Source of the DNA: Chitinophagaceae bacterium
Lineage (GTDB): Bacteria > Bacteroidota > Bacteroidia > Chitinophagales > Chitinophagaceae
Direction: 5' to 3'
DNA length: 64,000 bases
NCBI GenBank assembly: GCA_024508725.1
Contig: JANINS010000004.1
Location: 80,163-144,162, forward strand
A program made the translations under genes and the position numbers. Of this stretch, positions 5,114 through 51,093 are shown piece by piece. The notes under the pieces are model-generated. The model made no database searches. It was not told where the DNA came from and saw only the letters and a program-made list of their open reading frames with translations. The first letter of the stretch is position 1. Every line of letters starts with the position of its first letter.

Positions 5114-5452
5114 GTTAGGCAGACCTTTCAAATGTGGCAAATATCAGGTTAAAGATAGCCTTATAAGTGATGTTGATGTACTTGGTTAATCATGATTTAG
5201 GTCAGGCTATACATATATATATTATATAACTGCTCAAATCATGGTTCTCCAAAATTCAATTCAATATCCATTATTTTTTTTGAATGAGCATGAGTTATTG
5301 CTTTCGTCTATTCATATTGTTATGGTTTTCAGTTGATTTATAAAATCCCCTCCATTCTTTTATGAAATTCCCCCTGTGGTCATAAGATTATTGATCATTA
5401 GTTACTGAATTTGCACCGGCTATTTTTTGCCTCTCTCTAAATTGATTGCTTT
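5114..5452. promoter_or_regulatory. Divergent intergenic region between HTCS and SusC
   Basis: This 339-base, AT-rich gap separates the minus-strand regulator from the plus-strand locus and should hold both promoters and the HTCS operator. A TA-alternating stretch lies near 5210-5230. TGAATTTG at 5406-5413, 40 bases before the SusC ATG, is one base off the Bacteroidota -7 element TAnnTTTG, but I see no well-spaced -33 partner. No clear operator repeat was found, so the assignment rests mainly on position. Confidence 0.4.
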
Positions 5453-8400
5453 ATGAAAGGAAAAGCTTGCCCGCTGTATTTGTTACTGCTAGTTTTTTGT
5501 ATTACCGTCTCCACGTTAGTTACCGCACAAACCCCGATTGAGGTAAAAGGAACAGTGGTAGATGAAAAGAAAGCTCCGCTGGAAGGTGTCACCGTCACCG
5601 AAAAAGGAATTCAAAATTCAGTACAAACCAAATTGGACGGTTCTTTTGTTATCAAGATCCGTAGTAATGTCGGCTTCACAATGGTATTTACGTATGTTAA
5701 CCACGATACAGTTGAGATGAAGTTTACCGGTAAGCCCGGATCAGCTGTTAATGTGACCCTTAATTCAAGAACTTCATCGCTTGACGATGTTGTGGTGATT
5801 GCTTATGGCAGTACTACCAGGAAACTTGTTGCCAACTCAGTCGTTACTGTTTCTGGAAGACAAGTAGAGGATTTGCCTGTTGCTTCTCCTGCAGAAGCGA
5901 TGATCGGACTTGTTTCAGGTGCCAATATCGCAACACCAAGTGGTGAGCCTGGTCAAAATCCTTACATCCGTATTCGTGGATTGGGATCGATCGGTGCTGG
6001 CAACAATCCATTATTCGTGGTAGATGGTTATCCGCTCAATAACTCCGACAATTTTTATAATATCAATTCTGCCGATATTCAATCTATCCAGGTTTTAAAA
6101 GATGCTGCTGCGGCAGCGATCTACGGAAGCCGTGGGGGTAATGGGATCATCTTAGTTACTACAAAAAGAGGAGCAACAGGCCGAACCAGGTTTGCTGCAA
6201 ATGTTTATCATGGTGTTTCTTCAGTTTCAAGAAGAGTCAAACTTTTAGATAAAGACCAGTACCTCGCTTTTAGTAAAGAGGCGTATGCCAATGCAGGACA
6301 AACCTTCCCTGCAGCTTTGGGAGGAGATCCTTCATTAATGCCAAATACTGATTGGCAGGATGAGATTTTTCAAAATGGTTCACAAGATAATTACCAGATA
6401 TCTGCGTCTGGTGGATCTGAAGCTGCCAGATTTTATATTACGGGAAGTTACTTTAAACAAGTTGGTGTTATAAAAGGAACCTCGTTCGACAGAGCTTTAT
6501 TAAGAGCAACGTTTGATGCGAAGCTTTCAAAGAAATTAAAACTGGGCATCACATTCGCACCAAATTTTACTACAACTCAAACTAAACCTGTACAGGGAAG
6601 TTTTAATAGCTCAACAATTACCAACGGTGGCCAGGCAAACCTTGGTGCCGTTGTAACTGATGCTTTATTGTTACCTCCGGTTATTCCAACACGTACAGCG
6701 AATGGTGATTATGGTCAACTCATCAATAGCTATGGTAATGCAATTGCAATCGGAGGTTTATATAGCCCGATCGCAACACTCGATCTTTATAAGGATAAGG
6801 CAAGTTCGTTTAAAGGATTGATGATATCATTTATGGAATACGAGATCATCAAGAATTTAAACTTTAAAACTTCGTTTGGTGCCGAAGCGATATTCAATCG
6901 TCGTAATTACTATATACCACCAACACTTGCTAATGGAAGTGCACCTAATGCAAACCTGAGTTCTCCTAGTCTTTCAGGTATCAATGCTCAGCAACAAAAC
7001 AGCAATACATACAACTGGGTTTGGGAAAACACGTTGACTTATGCTAAAAAATTGAAAGGTGGTCACAACTTCGATTTTCTCGCCGGATATGGAGCACAGA
7101 AAAATGTTACAGAAGGTGGAACGGTAAGTGGACAAGCATCTTCATATACCAGCGGTGCGTTGGAATTTGTTACTGCAGCTGGTACCATGTTTGGAACAGC
7201 GAGTTATTCATCTAATGCACTAGTGTCAATTTTCGGTCGTGTAAATTACAATTACAAGTCTAGATATATTCTATCTGCAGCTTTAAGAACTGATGGTTCT
7301 TCAAGGTTTGGTTCTGATAACAGGTATGCAACGTTCCCTTCTGTTTCTGCCGCATGGAGAGTGATAGATGAGAAATTTATGAAGCGTTATGCAGGGACTG
7401 TTAGCGAGTTAAAGCTGAGAGCAAGTTATGGTGTTACAGGAAACAACAACATAGGCGATTATAATTGGCAGAGTTATGAGCAGCCGGCGAATTATATTTT
7501 CGGAGCCAATGGGGGTATTCGTAATTATGGTTTTGCTCCTAACTCGGTATCAATAAAAAACCTTACCTGGGAAACAAACAAGCAGGTTGACCTTGCACTT
7601 GAACTCGGATTTCTCAGAAACCGTTTATACTTCACTGTTGAAGCTTATCGCAGAACAACAACAAATCTTTTATTGAACAGGAATGTTCCGGCAGTAATTG
7701 GATTTGCTACCAGAGTTCTGAATAACGTTGGTGAAGTGAGAAACGATGGTGTCGATATCCAGGTACAAACAACCAACATCATTAAGAAAGATTTCAGATG
7801 GACTACCAATGCAAATATTTTCTGGGCTAGGAATAAAGTAATTGAACTGGCAAGTGCATCAGACCAGATACTTTTTGATCCTGTATTTGGATATACATCT
7901 GCTATCAGAGTTATACCAGGATTACCAATGGGTAGCTTCTTCGGTTACAAACAAATTGGTATATACATGAATGCTGCTGATGTATCAAGTAGTGCAGTAT
8001 GGTCTGCCGGTGGTTCTAAACCTGGAGATCTTAAATTCGAAGATGTGAGTGGTCCGAGTGGTAAACCTGACGGAGTGATTGATGCAAACGATATTCAATT
8101 ACTTGGTAATCCTTATCCTAAGTTTTCTTACGGAATGCAGAACAGCTTTACCTATAAAAAATGGTCTTTAAGTATTTCTCTGCAAGGCATTTTTGGTGGA
8201 AAGATCATTAATGGTGTAGACAGGTATGTATATAATTTTTATGGGAAAGTAAATGCAAGAGACCAGGTATTGAACCGTTGGAAATCTGAAGCAGAACCTG
8301 GTGATGGATGGACGCCAAGAGTAGTAGTGAATGCACCTTCGTCTCTAACATCATTCTCTTCTTATGAATTGTTTGATGCTTCTTATCTGCGAATTAAAAC

Positions 8401-8626
8401 TGTACAGATCAGGTATAACCTTCCTTCAAGCTTTATCAAAAAGTTGAAGATACAATCTGCAAGTTTGTATGTGATGGGACAGAATCTGTACACATTCCAG
8501 AAATATTTTGGATACAATCCTGAAGCAAACCTATATGGTAACTCAGTAAATCCAACATATGGTGTTGACCAGGGTTCATATCCATTGAACCGTACCATTA
8601 CTTTCGGAACCAACATTTCTTTCTAA
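5453..8626 (+). CDS. SusC-like TonB-dependent outer-membrane transporter
   Basis: A 1,057-residue outer-membrane channel that takes up oligosaccharides with its SusD partner, powered by TonB. It has a signal peptide ending TVLVTAQ-like near residue 26, a carboxypeptidase-regulatory-like domain (about 29-110, VKGTVVDEKKAPLEGVTV), the TonB-proximal DDVVVIAYG stretch, and a plug domain (about 120-235) with the family signatures IRIRG and IYGSRGGNGIILVTTKRG. The long beta-barrel ends in an aromatic residue (TFGTNISF). It is the first gene of the locus facing the HTCS, and SusD starts 19 bases later, so the pair is co-transcribed. Substrate is not readable from the protein; the GH10 and esterase neighbours point to xylo-oligosaccharides. 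Confidence 0.95.
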   Translation: MKGKACPLYLLLLVFCITVSTLVTAQTPIEVKGTVVDEKKAPLEGVTVTEKGIQNSVQTKLDGSFVIKIRSNVGFTMVFTYVNHDTVEMKFTGKPGSAVNVTLNSRTSSLDDVVVIAYGSTTRKLVANSVVTVSGRQVEDLPVASPAEAMIGLVSGANIATPSGEPGQNPYIRIRGLGSIGAGNNPLFVVDGYPLNNSDNFYNINSADIQSIQVLKDAAAAAIYGSRGGNGIILVTTKRGATGRTRFAANVYHGVSSVSRRVKLLDKDQYLAFSKEAYANAGQTFPAALGGDPSLMPNTDWQDEIFQNGSQDNYQISASGGSEAARFYITGSYFKQVGVIKGTSFDRALLRATFDAKLSKKLKLGITFAPNFTTTQTKPVQGSFNSSTITNGGQANLGAVVTDALLLPPVIPTRTANGDYGQLINSYGNAIAIGGLYSPIATLDLYKDKASSFKGLMISFMEYEIIKNLNFKTSFGAEAIFNRRNYYIPPTLANGSAPNANLSSPSLSGINAQQQNSNTYNWVWENTLTYAKKLKGGHNFDFLAGYGAQKNVTEGGTVSGQASSYTSGALEFVTAAGTMFGTASYSSNALVSIFGRVNYNYKSRYILSAALRTDGSSRFGSDNRYATFPSVSAAWRVIDEKFMKRYAGTVSELKLRASYGVTGNNNIGDYNWQSYEQPANYIFGANGGIRNYGFAPNSVSIKNLTWETNKQVDLALELGFLRNRLYFTVEAYRRTTTNLLLNRNVPAVIGFATRVLNNVGEVRNDGVDIQVQTTNIIKKDFRWTTNANIFWARNKVIELASASDQILFDPVFGYTSAIRVIPGLPMGSFFGYKQIGIYMNAADVSSSAVWSAGGSKPGDLKFEDVSGPSGKPDGVIDANDIQLLGNPYPKFSYGMQNSFTYKKWSLSISLQGIFGGKIINGVDRYVYNFYGKVNARDQVLNRWKSEAEPGDGWTPRVVVNAPSSLTSFSSYELFDASYLRIKTVQIRYNLPSSFIKKLKIQSASLYVMGQNLYTFQKYFGYNPEANLYGNSVNPTYGVDQGSYPLNRTITFGTNISF

Positions 8627-8645: not shown

Positions 8646-10142
8646 ATGAAAACGACAATTTTAAAATATACATCTATAACAGTTGGGATTGTAGCGATGA
8701 TGACGATCTCATCATGCAAAAAAGATTTCATTAATCTTAGTGATCCTACTCGTATCATCACAAGTGAGTATTATAAAGATTCTGCAAGCATGGCAACCGC
8801 AGTTACTGCTGCATATGCTTCTTTGCAAGACATGTATGGTAAAGCCAGTGGTAGCAGGGGCATTTTCCCTTACGCTGAAGTTACCTCTGATAATAGCATG
8901 GCGGTAGTAGAAGGAACAGGGATAGGAGAGTTTGAATATTTCACTTTCACACCTTCGAACCCTGTATTACAATCTTCATGGACAACCATGTATCGTTCCA
9001 TTGCACGTTGCAATGTAGTGTTGGGGCGAATTGATAAAGTTCAAATGAGTGCAGGTGTAAAAAGCCGTTGGCAATCTGAAGTAAAGTTTATTCGTGCCTT
9101 AAGTTATTTCAATCTTGTAAGGATCTGGGGTGATGTGCCTTTGGTTACAACAGAAATTGAAACAGTGGCAGATGCTTATCAGTATGGTAGAAAACCTGCG
9201 GCTGATATTTATGCTCAGATCGAAAAGGATCTCACCGAAGCTGAAGCTGATGCGAATCTGCCTGCAAAATATACATCAAACAACGATCTTGGCAGAGTTA
9301 CCAAGACTGCAGTGAAAGGATTGCTGGCTAAAGTATATCTAACACAAAACAAGTATAGTGATGCTGCTACCAAGTTGAATGACTTTATCACGAGCTACGA
9401 TGGTACTGTACATTCGTTGCTGCCTAACTACAGTGACATATTTCTTACCACTAATGAAATGAATGCTGAGATCGTATTTGCGGTACGTTATACTAAAGGT
9501 AACTCGCCAAGTACCGGAAGTCCGTTCACAAATTATTTTGCATACAGTACATCAAATGCAGGTGGAGTAGGAACCGGATATCTCTATAATACATTGCGAA
9601 AAGATCTTGTAGATACACTACTGGCAAATGGTGCTAATGATAAGAGAACTGCAGCTTCTTATACTACAAGTGGTACCACCTACGGAACTAAAAAATATGC
9701 AGATGTGCCTGCTGCGGATCAGGATGCAGATAATGACTGGATCGTACTTAGGTATGCAGATGTGTTGTTGATGTATGCAGAAGCACTGAACGAACAAAGT
9801 TCTTCTAACGTTTCTACGGCAGTAACATACCTGAACAGAGTTCGTACAAGAGCCGGCCTAACTGCTTTATCGGCTGCTTCATTAGACCAATCATCTTTGC
9901 GTCTTGCAATAGAAAGGGAACGTAGACTTGAATTGAATATGGAGGGACATCGCTGGTTTGACCTTATTAGAACAGGTAGAGCGATAGCTGTAATGAATAA
10001 TCATTTCACTAAATATAACATCAAGTTGAATGCAACTTCTCCGGTCGTTCAGATCGATGCACATCACTTGTTGTTCCCAATACCATTGAACGAGATCAAT
10101 ACTGCAGGATCAGCACTGTTACCTCAGAATCCTGGTTATTGA
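8646..10142 (+). CDS. SusD/RagB-family substrate-binding lipoprotein
   Basis: A 498-residue surface lipoprotein that caps the SusC channel and binds glycans. The N-terminus has a lipoprotein signal with lipobox ISSC (Cys24) followed by KKDFINLSDP, typical of the family. TPR-like helical segments follow (FIRALSYFNLVRIWGDVPLV near 140-160), and the C-terminal SusD signatures LERERRLELNMEGHRWFDLIRTG (split here as LELNMEGHRWFDLIRTG) and LFPIPLNEI are present. It lies directly after SusC. The length is usual for the family and the protein looks intact. Confidence 0.95.
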   Translation: MKTTILKYTSITVGIVAMMTISSCKKDFINLSDPTRIITSEYYKDSASMATAVTAAYASLQDMYGKASGSRGIFPYAEVTSDNSMAVVEGTGIGEFEYFTFTPSNPVLQSSWTTMYRSIARCNVVLGRIDKVQMSAGVKSRWQSEVKFIRALSYFNLVRIWGDVPLVTTEIETVADAYQYGRKPAADIYAQIEKDLTEAEADANLPAKYTSNNDLGRVTKTAVKGLLAKVYLTQNKYSDAATKLNDFITSYDGTVHSLLPNYSDIFLTTNEMNAEIVFAVRYTKGNSPSTGSPFTNYFAYSTSNAGGVGTGYLYNTLRKDLVDTLLANGANDKRTAASYTTSGTTYGTKKYADVPAADQDADNDWIVLRYADVLLMYAEALNEQSSSNVSTAVTYLNRVRTRAGLTALSAASLDQSSLRLAIERERRLELNMEGHRWFDLIRTGRAIAVMNNHFTKYNIKLNATSPVVQIDAHHLLFPIPLNEINTAGSALLPQNPGY

Positions 10143-10179
10143 TTTATTGAACATTAAATAAATTTTTAAAAGATATCAA

Positions 10180-10986
10180 ATGATAAAAAGACTTCTAACA
10201 ATAGTTGCAATTGCAGCATCTATTTCGGCATCTGCCCAATGGAATTATGACGCTAAAAATGTTGAAAGCATCTCGGGTTCTTATAAAGATGTAGGAAAAA
10301 AAGCTACCCTCATCACTACCAATTATTCCGGCAATCCAATGGAAGCAGATAATGATAATTCTGCGGTACAGAACATTGGATTTGATTTCAGGTTTAACGG
10401 GCAAACATTCAACACTTTTGTTTTGAATACAAACGGGTTTATCAAACTTGGGTCTGTAGCACCATCGGCTAAGAACATTTATTACAGCACAGGTATGGGT
10501 GGGGGAAATTCTACAATCACTGCAAAAGACAGTAATCTGCTTTATGCTTTTAACCGAAACATGGTTGCCCAGGAAGGTACAGAGTACAAAGTTATCACAA
10601 CCGGTTCTGCAGGGTCAAAAGTGTGTACGATACAATTCAAAAATTTAAAAGACAACATCAATACTGCTCAATACTCATCTGTTTCTTTTCAAATAAAATT
10701 ATACGAAACAAGTAACGTGATAGAATTTGTTTATGGCGAATGGGAAGCTTCTGGTAATGCACCAGTACTTACTGTTGCTGCTGTAGGTATAAAGGGGAAT
10801 GATATTGAGAGTTCAATAAATGTTGCAAAAGGTTCTGCAATTAAATGGGATGAAACCATGGGGCAGCCTACAAAGCCTTACCAGTTCCTGAATGGTAACT
10901 ACAGTGTGAAGGGTCCAAATTTTGGCAACCGGAATGATGCATTGCCAGGAGAAGGACATACCTATCGATTCACGCCATTGAAATAA
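10180..10986 (+). CDS. Secreted single-module protein, homologous to the accessory module of the GH10 xylanase
   Basis: A 268-residue protein with signal peptide MIKRLLTIVAIAASISASAQ and nothing else but one beta-rich module (about 28-268). It is clearly homologous to residues about 365-605 of the GH10 protein at 15071. Shared blocks include DNDNSAVQNIGFDF, FVLNTNG(F/Y)IKLG, CTIQFKNL, F(Q)(I/V)KLYE, AVGIKG, ES(S)INVAKGS and TYRF/TFRF ends. I recognise no named carbohydrate-binding family. Because one copy is attached to a xylanase and one sits directly behind SusD, where surface glycan-binding proteins are often encoded, a glycan-binding role is the best inference. It has no lipobox and no T9SS tail, so how it stays at the surface, if it does, is unclear. 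Confidence 0.8.
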   Translation: MIKRLLTIVAIAASISASAQWNYDAKNVESISGSYKDVGKKATLITTNYSGNPMEADNDNSAVQNIGFDFRFNGQTFNTFVLNTNGFIKLGSVAPSAKNIYYSTGMGGGNSTITAKDSNLLYAFNRNMVAQEGTEYKVITTGSAGSKVCTIQFKNLKDNINTAQYSSVSFQIKLYETSNVIEFVYGEWEASGNAPVLTVAAVGIKGNDIESSINVAKGSAIKWDETMGQPTKPYQFLNGNYSVKGPNFGNRNDALPGEGHTYRFTPLK

Positions 10987-11036
10987 ACTGATTACGAAAA
11001 CCAAACATATAGCTGCTCCAACTAAAAACGCTTGCT

Positions 11037-13640
11037 ATGAAGAAAATTCTATTAATCATACTGCTCTTTATTGCAGTAACAGGTCAGTCTCAAATTGCCG
11101 GTGATTACCAAAGTGCAGGAAACGTAGCACTAACAAGTGCTACCAACTGGCAAACTTACGATGGTACAAGCTGGATCGCAGCAACTACAGCTCCCAATTC
11201 AGCAACATTGGTTCCCGGAAATACGATCACTGTCTTATCGGGTAATACATGGAATAATACAGCTGCTGCTACAATTCCTGAAGGGGTTACATTTATTTTT
11301 AAAGGAACTGCCGGAACATTTACGCCAAATACCTTAACTATTAATGGTACTTACATACACGCTACAGGCCCTGCTACAGGGTCCAACACAACGCCAAGTA
11401 CTGTTTTTACAGGTGTAAGTACAACCACTGGATTGGGAGCTAATTCTACAGTGATTTATAGGGCATCAGGCAGCTACACGGTACCTACTGCAGCACTTGG
11501 CGGAAGAACCTATAACAATCTTATTTTCGATACCGATGGAACAACCGTTACACAACCTTCATTTGCTGGTCCTGGTTTTACATCTCCTTTAACGATCAAC
11601 GGAACCTTCACTATCGATTCATGGAAAACAGATTTTTATACCTCTGGAAATACTACAGCTGTAAATATTAACGGAGACGTTGTATTAACAGGTTCTTCCA
11701 GTTATCTAAGATTAAGAACTACTACAATTGCAGCAGGAAAATCACTTACAATTAATGCAGGTGATTCTTTAGGCATTGCTCAAGGATTTGCACTTACCAT
11801 TAACGGTACGCTGCTTAATAAAAGCATCAAGCCAATTGCATTTGCAACCAGTTCATCGCTTGTCATTAATGGCACTTTGCAACATGATGCAAATGGTGGA
11901 AGCATTCCCAATTCATCTACAACTTATAATGCTGGCTCTACAATTCTGGTTACCGGGCTTACGAATGTTTCTAATATTCCTGTATTGCCAGCAACGTGTG
12001 CCAATGTAGTATGGAATTGCCCAGGGCAAACAGGATCGAACACTTTTGTAAATACAATAACCAATGCTACTACCATTAATGGTAATCTCACTGTACAATC
12101 AACAGGTACAGCATCTATTTATCTTGGTGGAGCCGGCACAGGTAGAACACTCACAGTTAACGGTAATGTGATAGTGAGTGGAGGAAAGTTAGGTGTGATC
12201 AAACCTACATCAAGTGCTGCGACGGCTAATCAAAATTTTATTGTAAACGGGGATGTGATTGTTTCTGCTGGTGAATTTTATGTTGCTGATGCTTCAGTAG
12301 GTGCTACCGGTTATACAGGTAAAGGATTTTTATCTATTGGCGGAAACCTCAATCATACAGCAGGAACATTTGGAACCGGAGCTACAACACTTGCAGGCAC
12401 AGGTAATATTTCGTTTATCTCAAATAACACAGATAAAACAATCATGACCACAGGCATAGCAGGAGCAACAACTATTAACATAGATAAAACTGCTGCCGGA
12501 ATGATTACACTTACTTCGAACATAACACTTCCATCTTCTGCAACGTTAAACTTTGTAACAGGAAAACTTGCCGTACCAGCGAATACAGTTCTGGAATTAA
12601 GTGCTATTACAGGTGCAAATGCATCAGGTTATATTGCAACACTTACAAGCGGGGCGAATACAGGTAAAGTAAAGATGAGTAGTATAATTAGTGCTACAAC
12701 TTTTCCAGTTGGAACGCTCAATAATTATCTTCCGGTTATTATTAATCCGCTCAGTAGTTCTGATTATCTGGTAGGCGTGTTTGAAGGATTAACTACTAAT
12801 GCAGTTCCAAACGGAACTGCTGTAACAGCTACTCAAAAGCAAACAAGCGTAGATGCAGTTTGGCTTATTAACAGATCATCTTCAAATACTGATAACGCTA
12901 CTATAACAGTAAATTGGCCTGCATCTTTAGAGGGCTCAGCATTCGCTGCTTTAAATAATAACATTGGGTTAGGAACATATACCAATCAATGGCAAAGCTT
13001 TACCGGTACAGGAGATAATACTGCAAATACTGCTACAAACACATTTGATAACTTTTCTGCATTCGCAGTCGGTGGTATTGGTACTACATTACCGGTAACA
13101 ATAACTTCAATTAGTGCAGTTGCTGTTAACGGAAAGATCAATATTTCATGGGAAGTACAGAATGAAACAGGAGTTGAAAAGTATGTGATCGAAAGATCAA
13201 TTGATGGTACTTCATTCGTGGCAATAGAATCCGTTCTTTCAAAGGGTAATTCAACTTCTGCAACATATTCAGCAATTGACAATAATCCATTCAATGGTGA
13301 AAATCTTTACCGAATCAAATCTGTTGACAGATCAGGACAGGTAAAATATAGTGCTGTGGTTAGTGTGAATAATACTTTGAAGCCGAAATGCATGCTATCA
13401 GTAGCACCTAATCCTGTACATGGAAATAACATAAATCTGCAATTAAAGAATATTGCCAGTGATAATTATGCTGTGATCATTCTTAATAATGCTGGCCAGT
13501 TGGTGTATTCAAAAAATATCGGAAATATATCAGGAACAACCACTGTTTCTGTTTTCATTTCAGACTTATCTGAAGGAGTGTATCAGCTAGTGGTAAAAGG
13601 AAGTATTCAGCAATTGCAACAAACAATAATCGTTCGTTAA
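11037..13640 (+). CDS. Large secreted repeat protein with FN3-like domain and T9SS sorting tail (paralogue A)
   Basis: An 867-residue protein: signal peptide to about residue 20, then about 550 residues of Thr/Ser/Asn/Gly-rich strands with recurring (L)TINGT and VNGNVIV motifs, suggesting a right-handed beta-helix or similar solenoid. An FN3-like segment follows (LPVTITSISAVAVNGKINISW, about 683-780), then a type A T9SS C-terminal domain (VAPNPVHG to TIIVR). It is a strong paralogue of the 1,040-residue protein at 17430 across the N-terminal 500 residues (NGGSIPN, NVVWNCPGQ, IYLGGAG, GGKLGVIK). No catalytic motif is visible. A cell-surface or secreted role in binding or presenting polysaccharide is inference from context. 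Its stop overlaps the next start by one base. Confidence 0.85.
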   Translation: MKKILLIILLFIAVTGQSQIAGDYQSAGNVALTSATNWQTYDGTSWIAATTAPNSATLVPGNTITVLSGNTWNNTAAATIPEGVTFIFKGTAGTFTPNTLTINGTYIHATGPATGSNTTPSTVFTGVSTTTGLGANSTVIYRASGSYTVPTAALGGRTYNNLIFDTDGTTVTQPSFAGPGFTSPLTINGTFTIDSWKTDFYTSGNTTAVNINGDVVLTGSSSYLRLRTTTIAAGKSLTINAGDSLGIAQGFALTINGTLLNKSIKPIAFATSSSLVINGTLQHDANGGSIPNSSTTYNAGSTILVTGLTNVSNIPVLPATCANVVWNCPGQTGSNTFVNTITNATTINGNLTVQSTGTASIYLGGAGTGRTLTVNGNVIVSGGKLGVIKPTSSAATANQNFIVNGDVIVSAGEFYVADASVGATGYTGKGFLSIGGNLNHTAGTFGTGATTLAGTGNISFISNNTDKTIMTTGIAGATTINIDKTAAGMITLTSNITLPSSATLNFVTGKLAVPANTVLELSAITGANASGYIATLTSGANTGKVKMSSIISATTFPVGTLNNYLPVIINPLSSSDYLVGVFEGLTTNAVPNGTAVTATQKQTSVDAVWLINRSSSNTDNATITVNWPASLEGSAFAALNNNIGLGTYTNQWQSFTGTGDNTANTATNTFDNFSAFAVGGIGTTLPVTITSISAVAVNGKINISWEVQNETGVEKYVIERSIDGTSFVAIESVLSKGNSTSATYSAIDNNPFNGENLYRIKSVDRSGQVKYSAVVSVNNTLKPKCMLSVAPNPVHGNNINLQLKNIASDNYAVIILNNAGQLVYSKNIGNISGTTTVSVFISDLSEGVYQLVVKGSIQQLQQTIIVR

Positions 13641-15055
13641 TGAAAATTAATTACTGTATATCGATATGTTTTGCTCTTATGCTTAGCTATGCTTCGCTGG
13701 CTCAGCAAAATGAGTATTCTTTTAAAGTGGAAGCAAGTGTTGTTAACAGCAAAGAGAAAACATACGGTCCCTGGAAAACGTATCCTACACGATCTTTCCA
13801 AACATTGGATGGTTTTAAATCATCTAAAGTAAAAACAGATAAGTATGGTGGACGAAAAGATAAAAAGTTAGCAGAGGGCACAGGCTTCTTCACTACAAAG
13901 AAAGTGAATGACAGGTGGTGGTTGCTGGATCCTGAAGGAAATGCTTTTGTCAATGTGGGATTAGTGGCTGTTTCTCCAGCTGCTTCTGAAAGAGAGAAAG
14001 CGGCCTTACAGGAAAAATATGGTGATAACAGCAGGTGGGCTGATGAAACTCATGATCTCTTAGTGAAAAATAAATTCAATGCATTAGGAGCATGGAGTAA
14101 TAATGAGCTTTTCAAAAAATCTGCTTACCAGGATAAAAAGCCACTTACTTACACCATCATTAAAAACTTTATGAGTGATTATGGAAAAAAGCGTGGTGGT
14201 ACATACCAGGAATCGGGTCATATTGGATATCCTGATAGAACCATCTTTGTTTTCGATCCTCAATTTGAAGCTTTTTGTGATGAATATGCCAAACAACTGG
14301 CGGTAAATAAAGATGATAAAAACTTGTTTGGATATTTTTCTGATAACGAACTTCCATTTGAAAGATTATCATTAGACAGATACCTGGCAAAGAAAGATTC
14401 AACTGATCCCGGAAAAATATATGCTTCTCAATGGCTAAGCTCAAAAGGTATTGCATCATCTGCAATAAATGATTCTTTGCGAAACGAGTTCTTAGGTGTG
14501 ATGGCTGAAAAATATTTCTCTGTTGTTTCAAAAGCAATAAAAAAATACGATCCCAGTCATCTGTATCTAGGCAGCAGGTTGCACTCGTATGAATTGCAGG
14601 TAGAGCCTGTATTCAGAGCAATTGGTAAATATGTAGATGTAATTGCGATCAATTATTACCGTGTTTGGACACCTGTTGCAAAGGATATGGCTAATTGGGA
14701 AAGATGGAGCGGCAAACCTTTTATTGTTACCGAGTGGTATGTAAAAGGAGAAGATTCTAAAATGACAAACTATTCTGGTGCCGGCTGGCTGGTACATACG
14801 CAGAATGATAGGGGATTGTTCTATCAGAATTTTTCACTGGCTTTATTGGAGTCTGGAAATTGTGTAGGCTTTCATTGGTTTAAATACCAGGATAATGATC
14901 CGGAGAATAAAAATGTAGACCCTTCCAATACAGATGCAAACAAAGGCATTGTGAATACCTTATACGAAGTCTATGATCCGCTTCTCAAAAAAATGAAGGA
15001 AATAAATGAAAATGTTTATTCCCTGATCGAGTTCTTCGACCAGAGAAAAAAATAA
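13640..15055 (+). CDS. Secreted clan GH-A hydrolase, GH50 (agarase)-like
   Basis: A 471-residue protein with signal peptide MKINYCISICFALMLSYASLAQ. It carries a substrate-edge region WWLLDPEGNAFVNVG and a TIM-barrel-like core with two candidate catalytic glutamates: Glu237 in GYFSDNELPF (acid/base) and Glu365 in PFIVTEWYVKG (nucleophile). The late block GFHWFKYQDND also resembles agarase-type GH50 proteins. The family assignment is from these motifs only. Agarose is an unlikely substrate beside GH10, SASA and uronate genes, so the enzyme may act on another part of the same hemicellulose. ATG overlaps the upstream TAA (TAATG), implying translational coupling with paralogue A. It could belong to a related, less studied clan-A family. 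Confidence 0.65.
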   Translation: MKINYCISICFALMLSYASLAQQNEYSFKVEASVVNSKEKTYGPWKTYPTRSFQTLDGFKSSKVKTDKYGGRKDKKLAEGTGFFTTKKVNDRWWLLDPEGNAFVNVGLVAVSPAASEREKAALQEKYGDNSRWADETHDLLVKNKFNALGAWSNNELFKKSAYQDKKPLTYTIIKNFMSDYGKKRGGTYQESGHIGYPDRTIFVFDPQFEAFCDEYAKQLAVNKDDKNLFGYFSDNELPFERLSLDRYLAKKDSTDPGKIYASQWLSSKGIASSAINDSLRNEFLGVMAEKYFSVVSKAIKKYDPSHLYLGSRLHSYELQVEPVFRAIGKYVDVIAINYYRVWTPVAKDMANWERWSGKPFIVTEWYVKGEDSKMTNYSGAGWLVHTQNDRGLFYQNFSLALLESGNCVGFHWFKYQDNDPENKNVDPSNTDANKGIVNTLYEVYDPLLKKMKEINENVYSLIEFFDQRKK

Positions 15056-15070
15056 AAATCATATCGCTGT

Positions 15071-17425
15071 ATGAAAGATGATTCAAACAGTTCACGCTGT
15101 TTAATAAGGATGCTTTTGCTCCAACTTATCCTGTCGGTAACGATGATTGTGAATGCCCAGGTAGTTGATACAACGTTAAAAGGATTTTCTCCTTATCCAT
15201 TTGGTGCTGCGATTAGTGCTCAATTACTAAAGAATAACAGCCAGTACAGGAATCTTGTTAAAAAAGAATTTAGCAGTCTTACACCCGAAACTGCCATGAA
15301 GTTTGGTGTGATACATCCTGGAGAGAACACATGGTATTGGACTGATGCAGACTCCATTGTTTCTTTCGCACAGCAGAACAATAAAAGAGTACATGGACAT
15401 ACTTTGATATGGCATAATAATGTTCCGGCTTGGGTTACAAATTTCGTTGGTGATTCTGCTGCATGGGAGAACATCATGAAAACGCATATTCAAACCGTAG
15501 TAACACATTTCAAGGGTAAAGTAAAATCCTGGGATGTTGTGAATGAAGCTGTGATAGACAACGGAACGTTGCGTAATTCCATCTGGTTGCAACACCTTGG
15601 ACCAAACTATATTGCAAGAGCTTTCCAATATGCACATGAAGCAGATACCGCAGCGCTTTTATTTTACAATGACTTCAACCATGAAAGCAGCGCAAACAAC
15701 TATGCAAAGTTGTATGGAATTCAAACGCTGTTAACCAATCTGAAGTTAGCAGGCGTTCCAATACATGGAACAGGATTGCAGATGCATGTTAATAAGAACA
15801 TTAACAATAGCAACATTGGTAAAGCGATTGATTCGATGCTTGCCACTGGTTTAAAAGTTCATATCTCTGAGTTGGATGTGGCTGTTAATCCAGAGAATAA
15901 TCAAAGCCTCACTTTCAATGCTACAGTTGCAAGCCAGCAATTTGGGAAGTTCAAATATTTCGGAAGAGTTGGTAAACAGATCAGTGCAGATCAGTTCTAT
16001 GGCATTACAACATGGAATGTAACGGATGCTGATTCATGGATACCGCCAACATATAGTCGTCCTGACTTCCCATTACCCTTCAGTAACACCTATCAAAAAA
16101 AATCTTCTTACCAGGGATTTAAAGATGGAATGCTACATCAATGGAATGCAGCTGCAGCAACAACAGCACAGAGTTTTTTAGGAACCTTTTCAGACCTGGG
16201 AAGCAATGGTAATGCCATTACAACAAATTTCTCAGGTAATGCAATGAGCTTCGATAATGATAACTCTGCTGTTCAAAACATAGGTTTCGATTTTATTTTC
16301 AACGGCACGGCTTACTCTCAATTTGTTTTGAATACAAATGGGTATATCAAACTTGGAGCAAGTGCACCTTCTTCAACATCTGTTTTTTATCCTGCTTACA
16401 ATGGTAATACCGGAAGTGTTATAACTGCTTCTGATATTGACCTGATCTATCCCTATAATCATGATCTTACTGCAGGATCTAGTATTCCCGAATACCGTGT
16501 GTATACTTCAGGAAATCCAGGATCAAGAATATGTACCATCCAGTTTAAAAATCTTTCTGATAAACTTGCACCGGTTCAATATAGCAATATCGAGTTCCAG
16601 GTAAAATTGTATGAAAGCGATAACTCAATTGAATTTATCTATGGTAACTGGATATCAAGTGCCAACACATCTACAGCAGTAACAGCTGCAGTTGGAATCA
16701 AAGGGGTCAATGCTTTTGAGAGTATAAACGTTGCTAAAGGTTCAACTGTTGCATGGAACACATCGCTTTCTACTTCGAATAATTATTATTTCAAGAATGG
16801 CGATTATCCTTTGAATGGACCACAATTCAATTCGAGAAATGCTTTTTTGCCTGAACCCGGCAGAACATTTCGATTTGGTTCATCATCTGTTTTACCCTTA
16901 ACGTTCATAAGCTTTACGGGAGTTGATAAAGGAAATTATATCTCCCTGCAATGGAAAGCTGCCGAAAATGATCTTTTGGGTTTTAGAGTAGAACGGTCTG
17001 TTGATGGAATCAACTTTATCCAGGTTGCTTTCATTAATGCTACCGGGCAAGGCGAGTACCAATATCGTGATTATAATGTTGCTGAAGCTACTGTGTACTA
17101 CAGGCTCAGATCTTTTGATGCTTCGGGTGTTTTTATTTATTCTCCAGTTATCAGGATGCTGCGCAATATGTCAGAATTGTTTGCGGTCACAGCATCAAGT
17201 CCCTTCAGTGATGTGATTCATCTACAGGTTAGAAGTAATAAACAGCAGAAGATATCTGTGTTATGTAACAGCATCAATGGTAGCACAATCACAAACGTTG
17301 ATTATTTGATTAATCAAGGTGTGAATGCTATTCAAATTAAGGTTCCGGTGGTATCTAAAGGAACTTATTTACTGAGAGTTCAAACTGCAGAAAATCAGCA
17401 GACAATAAAAATCATTAAACAATAA
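15071..17425 (+). CDS. GH10 endo-beta-1,4-xylanase with novel accessory module, FN3-like domain and T9SS tail
   Basis: A 784-residue secreted endoxylanase. Signal peptide to about residue 30; GH10 domain about 32-355 with GHTLIWHN, acid/base Glu159 in SWDVVNEAVID and nucleophile Glu267 in HISELDVAV, so the active site is intact. Residues about 365-605 form a module homologous to the stand-alone protein at 10180. An FN3-like segment (about 607-695, LPLTFISFTG) and a T9SS sorting domain (about 700-784, ending TIKIIKQ) follow. The tail predicts export across the outer membrane and surface attachment, so backbone cleavage would occur outside the cell before SusCD uptake. It is the enzyme that best defines the substrate of this locus. 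Confidence 0.95.
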   Translation: MKDDSNSSRCLIRMLLLQLILSVTMIVNAQVVDTTLKGFSPYPFGAAISAQLLKNNSQYRNLVKKEFSSLTPETAMKFGVIHPGENTWYWTDADSIVSFAQQNNKRVHGHTLIWHNNVPAWVTNFVGDSAAWENIMKTHIQTVVTHFKGKVKSWDVVNEAVIDNGTLRNSIWLQHLGPNYIARAFQYAHEADTAALLFYNDFNHESSANNYAKLYGIQTLLTNLKLAGVPIHGTGLQMHVNKNINNSNIGKAIDSMLATGLKVHISELDVAVNPENNQSLTFNATVASQQFGKFKYFGRVGKQISADQFYGITTWNVTDADSWIPPTYSRPDFPLPFSNTYQKKSSYQGFKDGMLHQWNAAAATTAQSFLGTFSDLGSNGNAITTNFSGNAMSFDNDNSAVQNIGFDFIFNGTAYSQFVLNTNGYIKLGASAPSSTSVFYPAYNGNTGSVITASDIDLIYPYNHDLTAGSSIPEYRVYTSGNPGSRICTIQFKNLSDKLAPVQYSNIEFQVKLYESDNSIEFIYGNWISSANTSTAVTAAVGIKGVNAFESINVAKGSTVAWNTSLSTSNNYYFKNGDYPLNGPQFNSRNAFLPEPGRTFRFGSSSVLPLTFISFTGVDKGNYISLQWKAAENDLLGFRVERSVDGINFIQVAFINATGQGEYQYRDYNVAEATVYYRLRSFDASGVFIYSPVIRMLRNMSELFAVTASSPFSDVIHLQVRSNKQQKISVLCNSINGSTITNVDYLINQGVNAIQIKVPVVSKGTYLLRVQTAENQQTIKIIKQ

Positions 17426-17429
17426 CGCA

Positions 17430-20400
17430 ATGAAAAGAATATTGCTGCTCTTAATGACTATACTTTCAATGTTGGGAGTAAGTGCTCAGCAAAACGGAGA
17501 TTACCGAAGTATAGGTTCGGTATCTCTTACATCGTCTACAAACTGGGAAGTGTATAGTTCAGCAACAACAACTTGGTCTGTAGCTGTTGTTGCTCCTAAC
17601 AGTGCATCTCTTGTTAATGGAAATATCATCACTATTCAAGCAGCACATATTTGGAATAATAGTACAGTTTCAACTATTCCCGTTGGAGTTACTGTAGTGT
17701 GTCAATCAACAACGATCGGCACATTCAGTACCACTAATAAGATTGAGTTGAATGGTACCCTTGTGATTTACACCGCAGCTAGCCCTGGAAACATTTTATC
17801 AGGGATGAATATTAATACAGGATCAACTATTATTTACAGAGCTTCTACATCTGTTAAGCCAAGTCCTGTATACGGCGGTAGAACATATTATAATTTAAGT
17901 TTTGACACCGATGCTACTATTACAACACCAGTAAGTAATTCAACTTTTTCACAGCCAGCACCCGGTGCACAATGGACAGTAAACGGTACGTTGTATGTGA
18001 AAGGTTGGTCTGCAAGTTTCTATCACTGTTCTAACACTTTTGGAAATTTCAATGGGGATATAACAATAACTGGAACAGGAACGATCGTAAGATTAAAGAA
18101 TACTACCATTGCTTCGGGAAAAACTTTAACTATCGACGGTGGTGCTACACTTAATCTGGGAGGCACAACATCAGATGGCAGCTGTGGAACTGCTCAATCT
18201 ACAACATTAACCATTAATGGTAGTTTAGTAAACAAGAGCACCAATAACATTGGCTTTACTGCAGCATCTTTAGTAGTAAGTAGTGGCGGAACTTATAAGC
18301 ATGATGTTAATGGAGGTTCAATTCCAAATACGAACACTACTTATAGCGCAGGTTCAACCATTAATGTGACAGGAATAACCAACGTGGCTAATATTCCTGT
18401 CCTACCTACATCATGCGGTAACGTTATTTGGAATTGTGCAGGGCAAAGTTCGTCCAACACGTTTATTAATACCATCTCAAATACCACAACTGTCAATGGT
18501 GATCTTACTATTCAGTCTACGGGAACAGCTACAATATATTTGGGAGGTGCTGCCACATCCAGAACATTAACTGTTACAGGAAATCTTAATGTAACCGGTG
18601 GAAAGTTAGGAGTGATAAAAGCACCGTCTGGTGGTGCTACTGCGAACCAAACCTGTAATGTTAATGGTGATGTGTTAATTAATGGTGGAGAATTCTATGT
18701 TTCCGATGCTAATGGTGTTACATCAACAGCAAAAGGATATTTAAACGTTGATGGAAGTTTAAACCATACTGCCGGCGTTTTTGGCAGTACAGCTACCTCA
18801 GTATCCAACAGTGGTGTCATAACTTTCACAGGTAACAATACTGGTAAAACGATTAGCACTATTGGTTTTTCAAACAATACAAATATCATTATCGATAAGA
18901 CAGCCACGGGTGATATTTCTCTTGCTTCAGCTTTATCTGTCAACGCTGCTTCAAGATTAACCATCCAAACCGGTACGCTAAAACTAAATGCGAACACCGT
19001 CACTTTGAAATCTACTTCAGCTACTAATACTGCACGGGTTTATGTGAACTCAGGGGCTGTAGATCAAAGTGTTTCAGGAAGCAAATTTATTATTGAGCAG
19101 TACATTCCGGGAGGAACCAGGGCTTATCGCTTCTTCGGACATCCGTTTAATCATTCTATCAATCTTAGTGAACTTACAGATGATATAGATATAACAGGAA
19201 CTGATGGTGGCAATATAGCTGGAACAGGATTTACTTCAACAGGATCAAATGCAGCTTCGGCATTCTGGTATGATCCGATATCAGGCAATAGTAATACAAG
19301 TGCAGGATGGATTGCGTTTACAAGAAATGATGGAGTTAATGCTGCAGCTGGTCTTGGTAACACAAAAAACAGCTGGGATCAGGGACAAGGTATCAGAGTT
19401 TTGGTTCGTGGTCCTAAGGGACAGACTGGTATTTTAGGTTCTTCTCCACCTGCTCCGAATGCAACAACGATTTCGTTAAGTGGAAAGATCAATGATGGCA
19501 ACGATGTGCCTGTGAACTTGATAAAGTCAGCTAATTCAGGCTATAACCTGATCGCTAATCCTTATTGTGCTCCCTTAGACATTTACCAGTTCAGAACTTC
19601 TAATAGCAATGAGAATGCAATTGCAGGAAATAATTTTTATATATGGGTTCCATCAGGTGGTGTGAACGGGAAAGGCCAGTATATAACAGGTGACATGACG
19701 AATGCTGGTGAAACATATAGATACATTCCGACATATAGTTCATTCTTTATAGACGTTGCGGCTTCTTCTACAGCTACATTTAGAGAATCGCATAAAGCAG
19801 TTGCATCAACAAATGCTTCATATAGTTTACGTGGCGCATCAACTTCTGCATATGGTAATAATACACTTCAGTTGCAGGTTAGCAGGAATGGAGACTTTGA
19901 AGATCGGATTTTGATCCTTATGAATGATTCTACTGCAAAAGGGATTTTCGACAGCAAGGATGCAAGAAAGCTAGATAACAGTAACCTGAATTTTTACTCA
20001 TTGTCAGAAGACAGTATAAAGTTAGCTATTGACAGAAGACAGGCATACTTGAATAAGGAGGCTATTATCTCACTTGGTTTTACTACAACGTTGACAGCAG
20101 TATACTCAATTGAAGTAAAAGATTTCATGTTTGACCCTGAGACTGTTGTGATTTTGAGAGATAATTTCCTGAATACGGAAAAAACACTTGATAAGGGAGC
20201 AACTTATACTTTCTCAGTTTCCAGTGATTCGGGCTCAATGGGTAATCAAAGATTTCAACTGGTATTTCGAAGAGTTATTCAGTATTCCCCAATACAGCCT
20301 GTTGCTTTTGATTTCAAAGTTTTTCCAAATCCGGCGACGCAAACATGCAAAATATCTTTTACCAATCCACTGCAGGAAGACATACATGTCCTTATAACAA

Positions 20401-20552
20401 CTGCTTCCGGGGTGTTGGTGAGATCGATCGATGCCGGAAGATTGTTGAAGAATACGATTGATGTAGATCTTGATAAACTGAGTAAGGGCATTTATTATGT
20501 TACTGTAGTGTCAACCCTAAATAGGAAAACCCAAAAAATTGTGATTTTATGA
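17430..20552 (+). CDS. Large secreted repeat protein with T9SS sorting tail (paralogue B)
   Basis: A 1,040-residue paralogue of the protein at 11037. The two share signal peptide style, the N-terminal block (SxTNWxxY, APNSAxLVxGNxITI, WNN) and the whole solenoid-like region of about 500 residues. B then diverges: in place of the FN3-like segment it has a domain of about 370 residues starting near residue 545 (FIIEQYIPGGTRAYRFFGHPF), including GYNLIANPY. A type A T9SS domain (FKVFPNPATQTCKISF to TQKIVIL) closes it. No catalytic motif is seen. It starts 4 bases after the GH10 stop and its stop overlaps the next gene by four bases (ATGA). A surface polysaccharide-binding or scaffold role is inferred from context only. 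Confidence 0.85.
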   Translation: MKRILLLLMTILSMLGVSAQQNGDYRSIGSVSLTSSTNWEVYSSATTTWSVAVVAPNSASLVNGNIITIQAAHIWNNSTVSTIPVGVTVVCQSTTIGTFSTTNKIELNGTLVIYTAASPGNILSGMNINTGSTIIYRASTSVKPSPVYGGRTYYNLSFDTDATITTPVSNSTFSQPAPGAQWTVNGTLYVKGWSASFYHCSNTFGNFNGDITITGTGTIVRLKNTTIASGKTLTIDGGATLNLGGTTSDGSCGTAQSTTLTINGSLVNKSTNNIGFTAASLVVSSGGTYKHDVNGGSIPNTNTTYSAGSTINVTGITNVANIPVLPTSCGNVIWNCAGQSSSNTFINTISNTTTVNGDLTIQSTGTATIYLGGAATSRTLTVTGNLNVTGGKLGVIKAPSGGATANQTCNVNGDVLINGGEFYVSDANGVTSTAKGYLNVDGSLNHTAGVFGSTATSVSNSGVITFTGNNTGKTISTIGFSNNTNIIIDKTATGDISLASALSVNAASRLTIQTGTLKLNANTVTLKSTSATNTARVYVNSGAVDQSVSGSKFIIEQYIPGGTRAYRFFGHPFNHSINLSELTDDIDITGTDGGNIAGTGFTSTGSNAASAFWYDPISGNSNTSAGWIAFTRNDGVNAAAGLGNTKNSWDQGQGIRVLVRGPKGQTGILGSSPPAPNATTISLSGKINDGNDVPVNLIKSANSGYNLIANPYCAPLDIYQFRTSNSNENAIAGNNFYIWVPSGGVNGKGQYITGDMTNAGETYRYIPTYSSFFIDVAASSTATFRESHKAVASTNASYSLRGASTSAYGNNTLQLQVSRNGDFEDRILILMNDSTAKGIFDSKDARKLDNSNLNFYSLSEDSIKLAIDRRQAYLNKEAIISLGFTTTLTAVYSIEVKDFMFDPETVVILRDNFLNTEKTLDKGATYTFSVSSDSGSMGNQRFQLVFRRVIQYSPIQPVAFDFKVFPNPATQTCKISFTNPLQEDIHVLITTASGVLVRSIDAGRLLKNTIDVDLDKLSKGIYYVTVVSTLNRKTQKIVIL

Positions 20553-20776
20553 AAGTCTTGAAACCAGTGATCAAAAAGAATTTGTTGCAGACGTTTGTCA
20601 TCATCATGATCTTATTTACTCCATATATAGTAATGGCTCAACCTACTTTCGAGGAGGATGCAGAAGACACTGCAGCTCCTATTGATGGAGGAATTTCTCT
20701 TGTGGTTGCTGCCGGGATTGGGTATGGACTGAAACGTGCCTATAACGCCAGGAATACCAAAAAACCCAAAGATTAG
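20549..20776 (+). CDS. Small PID-CTERM-like sorting-signal protein
   Basis: A 75-residue protein: N-terminal hydrophobic signal (about 12-31, ending VMAQ), an acidic linker EEDAEDTAAP, then PIDGGISLVVAAGIGYGLKRAY and a basic tail. The PIDGG motif followed by a short hydrophobic helix and positive residues matches the PID-CTERM protein-sorting signature I know from Bacteroidota small proteins. Such tripartite C-termini are thought to be processed by exosortase-like enzymes; no such enzyme is in this window. The mature part would be only about 10-20 residues. The start overlaps the paralogue B stop as ATGA, so the two are probably translationally coupled. Confidence 0.75.
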   Translation: MKVLKPVIKKNLLQTFVIIMILFTPYIVMAQPTFEEDAEDTAAPIDGGISLVVAAGIGYGLKRAYNARNTKKPKD

Positions 20777-20783
20777 AACTAGA

Positions 20784-23549: not shown

Positions 23550-23560
23550 AATTTATTAAG

Positions 23561-26500: not shown

Positions 26501-26584
26501 CCTGCTGCTATCTCAGCAGGAATGTATGTAGTGAATTTTGTTATTGGTGATGATAAGATCAGTAACAAAATCATGATAAGATAA
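23561..26584 (+). CDS. SASA-type carbohydrate esterase fused to an extra domain and T9SS tail
   Basis: A 1,007-residue secreted esterase. The N-terminal 460 residues resemble sialate O-acetylesterases: LPRLISNGVVLQRNVPIPVWGW, the SGNH nucleophile Ser114 in CSGQSNM, GILWYQGESN and late His340 in THPLNKKAVGERL. The next gene has Asp two residues before this His (DVHP), but here that position is Ile and the nearest Asp is 336. Residues about 470-840 form a region of unknown type (NLVVYRYSTGD, DINGDGTADLMYMADDG), perhaps a propeller. An FN3-like segment (about 845-915) and T9SS domain (to SNKIMIR) follow. In a xylan locus these esterases likely remove acetyl groups from the polymer outside the cell. 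Confidence 0.85.
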   Translation: MKSARYISLILSLIFFGAYDATSNITLPRLISNGVVLQRNVPIPVWGWASAGESVTLSFNGNTYNTSANANGKWEVSIPAMPSGGPYTMIIAGVNTITLTDILIGDVYFCSGQSNMAHVISTSASLYANEIATSTNSNIRHFKVSRTYSTTLQEDVSSVNGWQSANPTTVLNFTAVGYFFARDIYARYNIPVGLINSSYEGTPAQAWMSPDGLSNFPYYFSQAHNTTNPEWDPMVLYKAMVYPFLKQPLKGILWYQGESNRLKAYEYRQLFPALINDWRSKFNQGDIPFLFVQLANYLAIKPEPQQSNVAECREAQSMALYLPKTAMAVIHDTNTDTITHPLNKKAVGERLSLAAQNIIYGETTVIYKSPSFNAAAINGNKISISFKDIGTGLTIQGGALKGFTIAGADRRFVNATATLVGNVVEVSSPETMKPVAVRYAWADNPITANLYSNEDLPVNSFRTDNWSGLTYLVSTTPSSLTTPFIPGNLVVYRYSTGDATKALSSSTVPVFIDEFETIPSASPVKSLALPTVTNGTNFRITGLPKTGSPLAYAPEGIPALSANGQYLTLFGYDQSVGAFSTGSVNRVIARIDANGNINSSTTVESALGQPRCAIAEGNNFWVAGNATGIRLTSLGLTTTTTQVAANPGASRSLGVFNNKLYCFIGDGKLYNFNNLPQTTSSVNATASLANAAGNNQSVLFDINGDGTADLMYMADDGLVATPQNAALRKYVLVNGSWTAKGSITATDTAIIHGLKSITGRAVNGSVELYAVTWGNQTNFAPSMLFKLQDGNAAGSSLSITTHKPEILTVADTNSMFRGVTFTPGTTVNIVLPLNEIRLFATTSASGIKLNWSVTDENDIARYELQWSYDGVTFQTISSQPNNNDRNYSWVDRDHNSKTNYYRIITHKIDGGKTISDVVLVNRKGFSSVKLFQANSNSIILEAKVPAAANSFITVTDIQGRIIVQQDQKMNIGKNNIEILLPAAISAGMYVVNFVIGDDKISNKIMIR

Positions 26585-26589
26585 TTTAT

Positions 26590-28533: not shown

Positions 28534-28537
28534 TGCT

Positions 28538-29299: not shown

Positions 29300-29421
29300 T
29301 TTTTTGATTCCGGCTTCATAACTTTCATCATCATTTGTTGCGTCGCACACTTGTACTTTTAAATCCTTATTCAACATATAGCACACAAACTTTTTTTGAT
29401 TATTCTAAACAGTTCAAATTA

Positions 29422-31650: not shown

Positions 31651-31764
31651 TGGTTAGTTAAGAATTAGTAGCGAAAAAAGTCCCCATTTTTACCGAACGT
31701 TGAAGTGAGTGACACAACGAAGACGACATGAAAAACAAATGTAGAAAAACCAAAAAATATTTTA

Positions 31765-50641: not shown

Positions 50642-50661
50642 TCAACTCTTTATTGGATAAT

Positions 50662-51093
50662 ATGAAACAGATCTTTTTTTTGATTCTTTTTTCTTGTGTC
50701 TACGCATTATCATTTTCACAGATTGATTATGACAACAGGTTTAAGCAAATTATACCTCCTGTTCCAAACGCTGGATCTATAGCGGATGTATCAAAGTTTA
50801 GTTCAGTTGATTACTCGGGAGTACCAAACGTGGAGGTTCCGATTTACAATGTTAATTCAAAGGCTGTAAGTGTACCTATCAACCTTAGGTATAATGCTAG
50901 CGGAATTAAAGTTAGAGATATTGCAAGTTGGGTTGGCTTGGGCTGGTCGCTATCTGTAGGAGGGTCTATTTCAAGAACTGTGATCGGGAATCCTGACGAC
51001 AGATATTATGATGAACCTGGCGGAAGTGGACCTAGTGCTAGCTATCGACTCAGAAAAGGATGGGTCTATTCGAGAGGTTGTGCCGATGCTTGA
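50662..51093 (+). pseudogene. N-terminal remnant of an RHS-type repeat protein
   Basis: Signal peptide MKQIFFLILFSCVYALSFSQ, then the characteristic opening of large Bacteroidota RHS/YD-repeat proteins: IIPPVPNAGSIADVSKFSSVDYSGVPNVEVPIYNV, VPINLRYNASGIKVRDIASWVGLGWSLSVGGSISRTVIG. Intact members continue for a thousand or more residues with YD repeats and a core domain. Here the frame stops after 143 residues, and the sequence passes directly into what looks like the C-terminal tip of the same kind of protein in the +1 frame (from about 51050). An internal deletion, with loss of frame, is the simplest reading. The ATG at 50662 is preferred over an in-frame TTG at 50653. Confidence 0.75.

Follow-up and report, generated by a model that had tools for sequence, protein, structure and literature searches.

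An unnamed extracellular beta module shared by a GH10 protein and a stand-alone secreted protein of a Chitinophagaceae polysaccharide utilisation locus

Two module-bearing proteins of one locus

We analysed a stretch of 64,000 nucleotides from a Chitinophagaceae bacterium (contig JANINS010000004.1, positions 80,163 to 144,162; hereafter the window), which holds a polysaccharide utilisation locus (PUL) with two forward-strand genes for proteins that share a domain. One gene (10180..10986) encodes a 268-residue protein made of a signal peptide and a single module; the other (15071..17425) encodes a 784-residue protein in which the module follows a GH10 catalytic domain. Aligned by BLASTP, the two proteins are identical at 124 of 247 positions (50%), with 3 gap positions, 244 bits and an E-value of 7e-80, residues 20-264 of the shorter protein pairing with residues 357-602 of the longer. 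The shared stretch is one module of ~240 residues. The envelope of a profile of the module family, described below, covers residues 26-264 and 364-602 of the two proteins, stops 4 residues short of the C-terminus of the stand-alone protein, and corresponds to about 16160..16876 on the forward strand in the GH10 gene. An initial annotation of this DNA had proposed such a common module, placed it at about 16165-16885 in the GH10 enzyme and named five motifs in colinear order (FVLNTNGxIKLG, CTIQFKNL, AVGIKG and INVAKGS among them); the alignment bears out the common module and contains all five motifs in that order, and the coordinates agree with the envelope. The pair is not a chance match, since each form is found again, in the same order of genes, in two further genomes. 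The stand-alone copy is 78% and 71% identical to its orthologs there and the GH10-borne copy 77% and 76% identical to its own, with 60% identity to a second GH10-borne copy in one of these genomes (G231).

Searches of curated families gave the module no name. Neither window copy reached any cut-off in Pfam and NCBIfam scans. The 268-residue protein had no Pfam match even at E<=1, and in NCBIfam it matched a xylanase/feruloyl esterase model weakly (18.9 bits, where the cut-off is 1200; E 3.4e-4). No carbohydrate-binding module (CBM) model in Pfam-A scored above its cut-off with either window copy or with any of 36 family members, in line with the view of the initial annotation that the module fits no known carbohydrate-binding family. 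A literature search, which covered subscription journals incompletely, found no publication naming it.

The stand-alone gene lies directly 3' of susD (10142 to 10180). The signal peptide of its product, MIKRLLTIVAIAASISASAQ, was recognized by eye and ends in SASAQ. The only cysteine is residue 149, and the protein has no lipobox cysteine; nor is one conserved in the orthologs, the first (from a metagenome-assembled genome (MAG), L005) having none before residue 111 and the second (G231) an IAAC at residues 11-14 (Cys14) that the others do not share. Pfam and NCBIfam found no C-terminal sorting domain of the type IX secretion system (T9SS) in the stand-alone protein. The initial annotation had placed this gene where proteins of the SusE or surface glycan-binding protein (SGBP) type are encoded. 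Its position directly behind susD stands, whereas we rejected the identity as a SusE/SGBP-type lipoprotein for want of a lipobox cysteine, and the argument for glycan binding by analogy with SGBPs fails because the protein has no lipid anchor. Having neither lipobox nor T9SS tail, the protein may be retained in the periplasm or may leave by a route that these signals do not explain.

The GH10 protein consists of a GH10 domain (residues 43-351), the module, a linker region and a weak T9SS sorting domain (711-782), as placed by Pfam and the profile. The tail sits in the expected position and scores below both cut-offs that apply to it (Por_Secre_tail, 21 against 27 bits; TIGR04183, 20.9 against 23 bits), and the same genome encodes the translocon protein SprA (2427 bits). 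The claim that one copy is tethered to a xylanase holds in all three genomes with this PUL, each of which has the GH10-module fusion.

A family of N-terminal modules in exported Bacteroidota proteins

We searched genomes with a single module sequence and with a profile of ~230 positions built from 36 sequences. Family members match this profile over its full length and carry the motifs IGFxFxFNG...NGxIxLG and FQxKLYExxNxIEFxYG. With this profile, which was built partly from them, the window copies reach 309 and 278 bits; their pairwise homology is independent of it. In the same bacterial family, 92 of 294 genomes had a match to the single sequence at E<=1e-6, and across Bacteroidota 78 of 296 sampled genomes matched the profile at E<=1e-15. 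The window's own genome contains at least four module places by the single-sequence search and at least five by the profile, such copy numbers being lower bounds with at most eight candidates scored per genome for the single sequence and about seven to nine at most for the profile. The placement of the module in a large family of extracellular modules, one without a name, is near certain. One further copy in this genome (G000:C4:63434-63970) lies in an open frame of 3954 residues about 16 kb upstream of the window.

To characterize the proteins that carry the module, we collected 76 host frames with module scores of at least 60 bits from 63 of 66 stretches around top-ranked matches, which is not a random sample (L178, L191 and L195 gave none). 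Two of these frames, L052 and L053, could be the two halves of a single gene; L046, L047 and L048 are near-identical frames from different genomes. The module starts within the first 60 residues in 69 of the 75 hosts with an intact start. In the remaining six it starts further in: four of them are GH10 proteins, one is an M6 peptidase from Bacteroidales (L006) and one a Sortilin/GEVED protein (L153). Pfam scans covered 64 of the 76 hosts, namely all except L005 (2), L036 (2), L043, L047, L048, L052, L157, L158, L177 and L179. A T9SS tail was found in 37 of the 46 hosts scanned together, in which PKD, fn3, Ig-like, P-domain, MAM and GBD_T9SS were the other common partners; 17 hosts scanned singly added CARDB, LamG (3 hosts), GEVED, M6 and one protein with GH10 and CBM96. 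In Bacteroidota proteins exported by the T9SS, the module is thus usually the domain that comes right after the signal peptide. Two host frames of more than 3300 residues (L157 and L158, from genomes G089 and G261) contain five divergent module copies each.

Enzymes acting on polysaccharides are rare among these partners. A phmmer search with the GH10 domain found it in 4 of the 76 host frames, all from this type of PUL. There was no glycosidase or CBM among 25 of the 34 partner families listed for the 46 hosts, and no glycosidase family other than GH10 among the matches listed for the 64 hosts scanned with Pfam. Elsewhere, the nearest partners linked to glycans were LamG, of lectin/glucanase fold, in its three hosts and BNR_assoc_N, associated with neuraminidases, in 3 of 46. 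Of the 66 stretches, 4 contained SusC and SusD homologues and three of those 4 are this PUL, by a check with one query each that may miss divergent homologues. GH10 is itself common, with 252 matches in 128 of the 294 genomes, part of which we compared by position with the module places. The stand-alone form is likewise confined, among the 76 host frames, to this PUL type in three genomes. Recurrent attachment to carbohydrate-active enzymes, one criterion for a CBM in CAZy, is therefore not what the family displays, given GH10 in 4 of 76 hosts from a single PUL type. The initial annotation had read the module as a new xylan-binding module, to be judged by its domain partners. The module is real and shared, and occurs both fused to GH10 and alone in three genomes; its partners are mostly unrelated to polysaccharide enzymes, the outcome which that annotation had itself named as refuting, and as a description of the whole family the label of a new xylan-binding module overreaches.

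In a tree of 67 modules, midpoint-rooted for drawing only, the seven PUL copies form one group (94/89), which appears in 93% of bootstrap trees and falls slightly under the threshold at which the program awards a star. These seven and three T9SS proteins with CARDB matches form a starred set (95/98). One recruitment into the PUL followed by duplication is the simplest account, supported as it is by the tree and by the gene order in three genomes.

Gene neighbourhood, predicted structure and viral copies

The PUL adjoins a gene for a hybrid two-component regulator on the reverse strand (1034..5140); all other PUL genes named here are on the forward strand. A SusC/RagA TonB-dependent transporter (5453..8626; TIGR04056, 819 bits) and a SusD family protein (8646..10142; lipobox ...TISSCKKD by eye) precede the stand-alone module gene. 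Then come an 867-residue T9SS protein (11037..13640; Por_Secre_tail), a 471-residue enzyme (13640..15055), the gene for the GH10 protein with the module and a 1040-residue T9SS protein (17430..20552). Downstream of this run (20736..32949) are genes for GH2, three SASA-type esterases, GH3 and a mannonate dehydratase (UxuA). The order SusC, SusD, stand-alone module, T9SS protein of 862-867 residues, GH50-like enzyme, GH10 with module and long secreted protein is conserved in the Chitinophagaceae MAG (L005) and in G231 (L036/L037), where a second GH10-module protein, with CBM96, comes after the conserved run. The 471-residue enzyme, which has no Pfam match, is most similar among solved structures to 5t3b, named 'Glycoside Hydrolase' (E 6e-64), and next to beta-agarases; we take these relatives to be GH50 and hence call the enzyme GH50-like. 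The gene for this agarase-related enzyme lies between those of the two module proteins in a PUL with GH10. The substrate may reasonably be guessed to be xylan, but with an agarase-related enzyme present it could be a different polymer. Two oddities of the window concern other genes. At 28439-28533, the mechanical start of a 286-residue SASA-type esterase runs into the preceding esterase gene, and an internal ATG (MKRIICFN) is the likelier start. At 50653-51625, a short frame with an RHS-type start is followed at once by a frame resembling an RHS tail, the repeat part seemingly missing as judged by eye.

We predicted the structure of the module twice. A first AlphaFold model, from 5 sequences, was poor (pLDDT 57; best VIA Z 4.7). 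A second AlphaFold2 model, from 23 sequences, was fair (pLDDT 76.6, pTM 0.84) and is all-beta, the initial annotation having called the module beta-rich; its loops at model residues 85-96 and 206-226 are poorly predicted. Among solved folds there was no prominent match (best Foldseek PDB hit E 0.27; best VIA Z 5.0, to 4zle). Many of the VIA matches at Z 3.7-5 are mutarotases or mutarotase-like domains, and further enzymes among them presumably have supersandwich domains, so that a galactose-mutarotase-like supersandwich fold is a lead only. In a library of viral structures, four proteins matched the model at E<=0.001, two from uncultured Caudovirales phages and two nameless. Five residues (W21, W188, A216, Y234 and P246) are invariant in all seven PUL copies and occur in at most one of ten comparison hosts, hand-picked as near relatives of the PUL copies. 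Three of the five (W, W and Y) are aromatic (hypergeometric P 0.068), and Y234 falls in a poorly predicted loop. An aromatic platform or sugar-binding face in the PUL copies could be imagined from these residues, which we treat as a lead, not as evidence.

Profile comparisons point to two kinds of relative. The family profile matches residues 23-226 of a Flavobacterium johnsoniae chain of 1436 residues (8gl6_D) with an E-value of 1e-34; this chain is labelled RemA in the copy of the PDB used here, and we refer to it as RemA/RemZ. We know of no GH10 domain in it. Weak matches to NIDO (PF06119) appeared in 6 of the 36 members, all six within NIDO positions 2-55, the first third of that domain, and the only NIDO match in the window's own genome (C4:63575-63718) lies within the module-profile match at C4:63434-63970. 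The best member scored 22.8 bits against a gathering cut-off of 25, which places the module outside NIDO proper; these matches suggest that it is probably a distant relative of this nidogen-like domain. A CHB_HEX_C_1 match was seen in 1 of the 36 members (E 0.011). F5/8 type C (2/36 members, best 4.9e-4) and S_tail_recep_bd (2/36, best 0.01) were dismissed as too weak and scattered.

The module also occurs in viral contigs. A profile search of IMG/VR gave 80 loci (the best 80 of 87), and in each of these a local search located the module within open frames, at scores of 58-142 bits. Of 32 records searched for further markers, 19 had a terminase match (18 over the cut-off), 14 the T9SS domain CHU_C, which we take to be of type B, and eight had both. 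By its coordinates, the CHU_C match lies inside the module frame in all 14 (L079:4770-7223, L113:4707-7226, L103, L106, L107, L112, L121, L069, L117, L125, L059, L095, L100 and L119). Among these, one 817-residue protein combines module, SprB repeats, a PKD-like domain and CHU_C (L079), and a 429-residue protein joins module and CHU_C (L059). The eight records that combine a module-CHU_C protein with a terminase match are 84-291 kb long. In 14 control genomes the CHU_C search found nothing and the terminase search matched six, so a terminase match alone does not prove a free phage. It is possible that the module-CHU_C proteins are phage cargo for the T9SS of the host. Five other viral proteins of 316-328 residues (L058, L096, L098, L099 and L061) start directly with the module and lack an evident signal peptide, which makes them candidate virion proteins. 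A tblastn search with the 268-residue protein against 50,697 named phage records had no match, and the viral members surfaced by profile only. In PHROGs the best of the 36 members reached an E-value of 0.0013; the weak matches there to 'tail fiber' families (phrog_18345, 2/36 members, best 0.0013; phrog_18703, 1/36, 0.0087) were set aside.

The role of the module and its place among known systems

We propose that this PUL borrowed an unnamed extracellular module, all-beta and about 210-245 residues long, which is usually the first domain of T9SS-exported Bacteroidota proteins. A copy close to the modules of T9SS/CARDB proteins would have been taken up, most simply once, and then duplicated, one duplicate becoming tethered behind the GH10 catalytic domain and the other a separate small secreted protein. 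The module itself would be an adhesion unit in contact with surface or matrix, keeping exported proteins on a polymer. Placed between the enzyme and the T9SS tail, it would hold the exported GH10 protein to a glycan, either the substrate or the cell's own surface polysaccharide, and the stand-alone copy would bind with the same specificity as a free unit, periplasmic or released. Direct xylan binding is one version of this mechanism, not the established one. On balance we lean towards this account of an adhesion-type extracellular beta module, recruited once and duplicated in the PUL. As for its parts, an adhesion or ligand-binding role seems slightly more probable than not, direct binding of the PUL's own polysaccharide is possible but somewhat less probable than not, and the module is probably a general sticking module borrowed by the gene cluster rather than a dedicated xylan binder.

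Several observations weigh against our proposal. Binding by members of the family is putative, and N-terminal placement on so many different proteins could also reflect a plain folding or spacing domain. No solved fold was prominent in the Foldseek and VIA searches, and every NIDO score falls short of the curated cut-off, with no match at E<=0.1 in 30 of the 36 members and none in either window copy. The aromatic excess is weak (3/5, P about 0.07), W188 being a tryptophan in 1 of the 10 comparison hosts as well. The T9SS tail of the GH10 protein itself is under its cut-off (21 against 27 bits), and the stand-alone protein has neither such a tail nor a conserved lipobox to account for a route to the cell surface.

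The strongest rival is a new xylan-specific CBM, whose GH10-tethered copy would target the enzyme to xylan while the stand-alone copy captures xylan. The fusion in three genomes with the PUL, twice in G231 and once alongside CBM96, speaks for this, as do the position of the stand-alone copy directly behind susD in all three and the PUL-specific W21, W188 and Y234 when compared with the ten chosen relatives; UxuA, GH2, GH3 and the SASA-type esterases would suit acetylated glucuronoxylan. We nevertheless think it unlikely, if well worth keeping in view, given GH10 in 4 of 76 hosts of one PUL type, the occurrence of the family in viral contigs as well as in an M6 peptidase and a protein of adhesin type, an agarase-related enzyme in the same gene run, and no CBM model match above cut-off. 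Somewhat less probable still is a ligand-free structural module that gives T9SS proteins a folding cap, a spacer or an N-terminal domain compatible with secretion. The strongly preferred position (in 69/75 hosts the signal peptide is followed first by the module) and the great diversity of partners would follow from such a role, which sits poorly with the internal position of the module in the GH10, M6 peptidase and Sortilin-type hosts, with its occurrence alone in three PULs of this type and with viral copies, some of them without an evident signal peptide.

The two forms might also act on each other, the free 268-residue protein binding the GH10-borne module or its dimers and so assembling surface enzyme complexes. 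Both forms co-occur in three PULs and nowhere else among the collected hosts, and they group together in the tree; against such docking, the free form lacks an export tail and we know of no evidence for oligomerisation in the family, and we regard it as improbable. That the stand-alone protein is a surface glycan-binding lipoprotein of the SusE/SGBP type, as its gene directly after susD would suggest, is the least credible of these ideas and hardly to be entertained, since the window protein and its L005 ortholog lack a lipobox cysteine, the IAAC of G231 is unshared, and Pfam gives no match at E<=1.

The adhesion-type reading matters beyond this PUL. The domain is present in about a quarter of the sampled Bacteroidota genomes, yet falls under every Pfam and NCBIfam cut-off in the copies scanned, and its hosts span a protein of gliding-adhesin type, a peptidase, a PUL xylanase and viral contigs. 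If the module binds glycan, its ligand would be that of a whole class of T9SS surface proteins, and the stand-alone protein is a natural single-domain construct for direct testing. More speculatively, and with less confidence than we give to any ligand-free role, one surface-recognition domain might serve gliding and adhesion proteins, the retention of PUL enzymes, and phages that bind the same surface polymer through T9SS-tagged or virion proteins. The PUL pair would then constitute a new family of carbohydrate binders that arose from an adhesin module, with ligand and phage receptor readable from one fold.

Known systems resemble this one in part. CBM4/9 and CBM22 are among the carbohydrate-binding modules of GH10 xylanases; like them, the module is tethered to GH10, in one G231 protein together with CBM96, and unlike them it matches no CBM model above cut-off and is seen mostly on non-enzymes. 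SusE/SusF and SGBPs are surface lipoproteins whose genes likewise lie behind susD, whereas the stand-alone protein has no lipid anchor and no Pfam match. The RemA/RemZ chain 8gl6_D is closer, with a full-length profile match and the module right behind the signal peptide. The accessible part of PMC10994853 speaks of RemZ (Fjoh_0803), a T9SS substrate of gliding-adhesin type, and describes the C-terminal domain alone as well resolved, so that the module, unlike that domain, is without solved coordinates in this structure; RemA is an adhesin with a lectin domain in the accessible part of PMC12618676. Phage-encoded T9SS cargo has a precedent in Cryophage, for which the accessible part of PMC7468147 reports an endoglucanase, a GH39 and a PA14 protein with type A domains. 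The viral contigs described here likewise carry genes for proteins with a T9SS sorting domain; they differ from Cryophage, whose cargo has type A domains, in joining the module to CHU_C.

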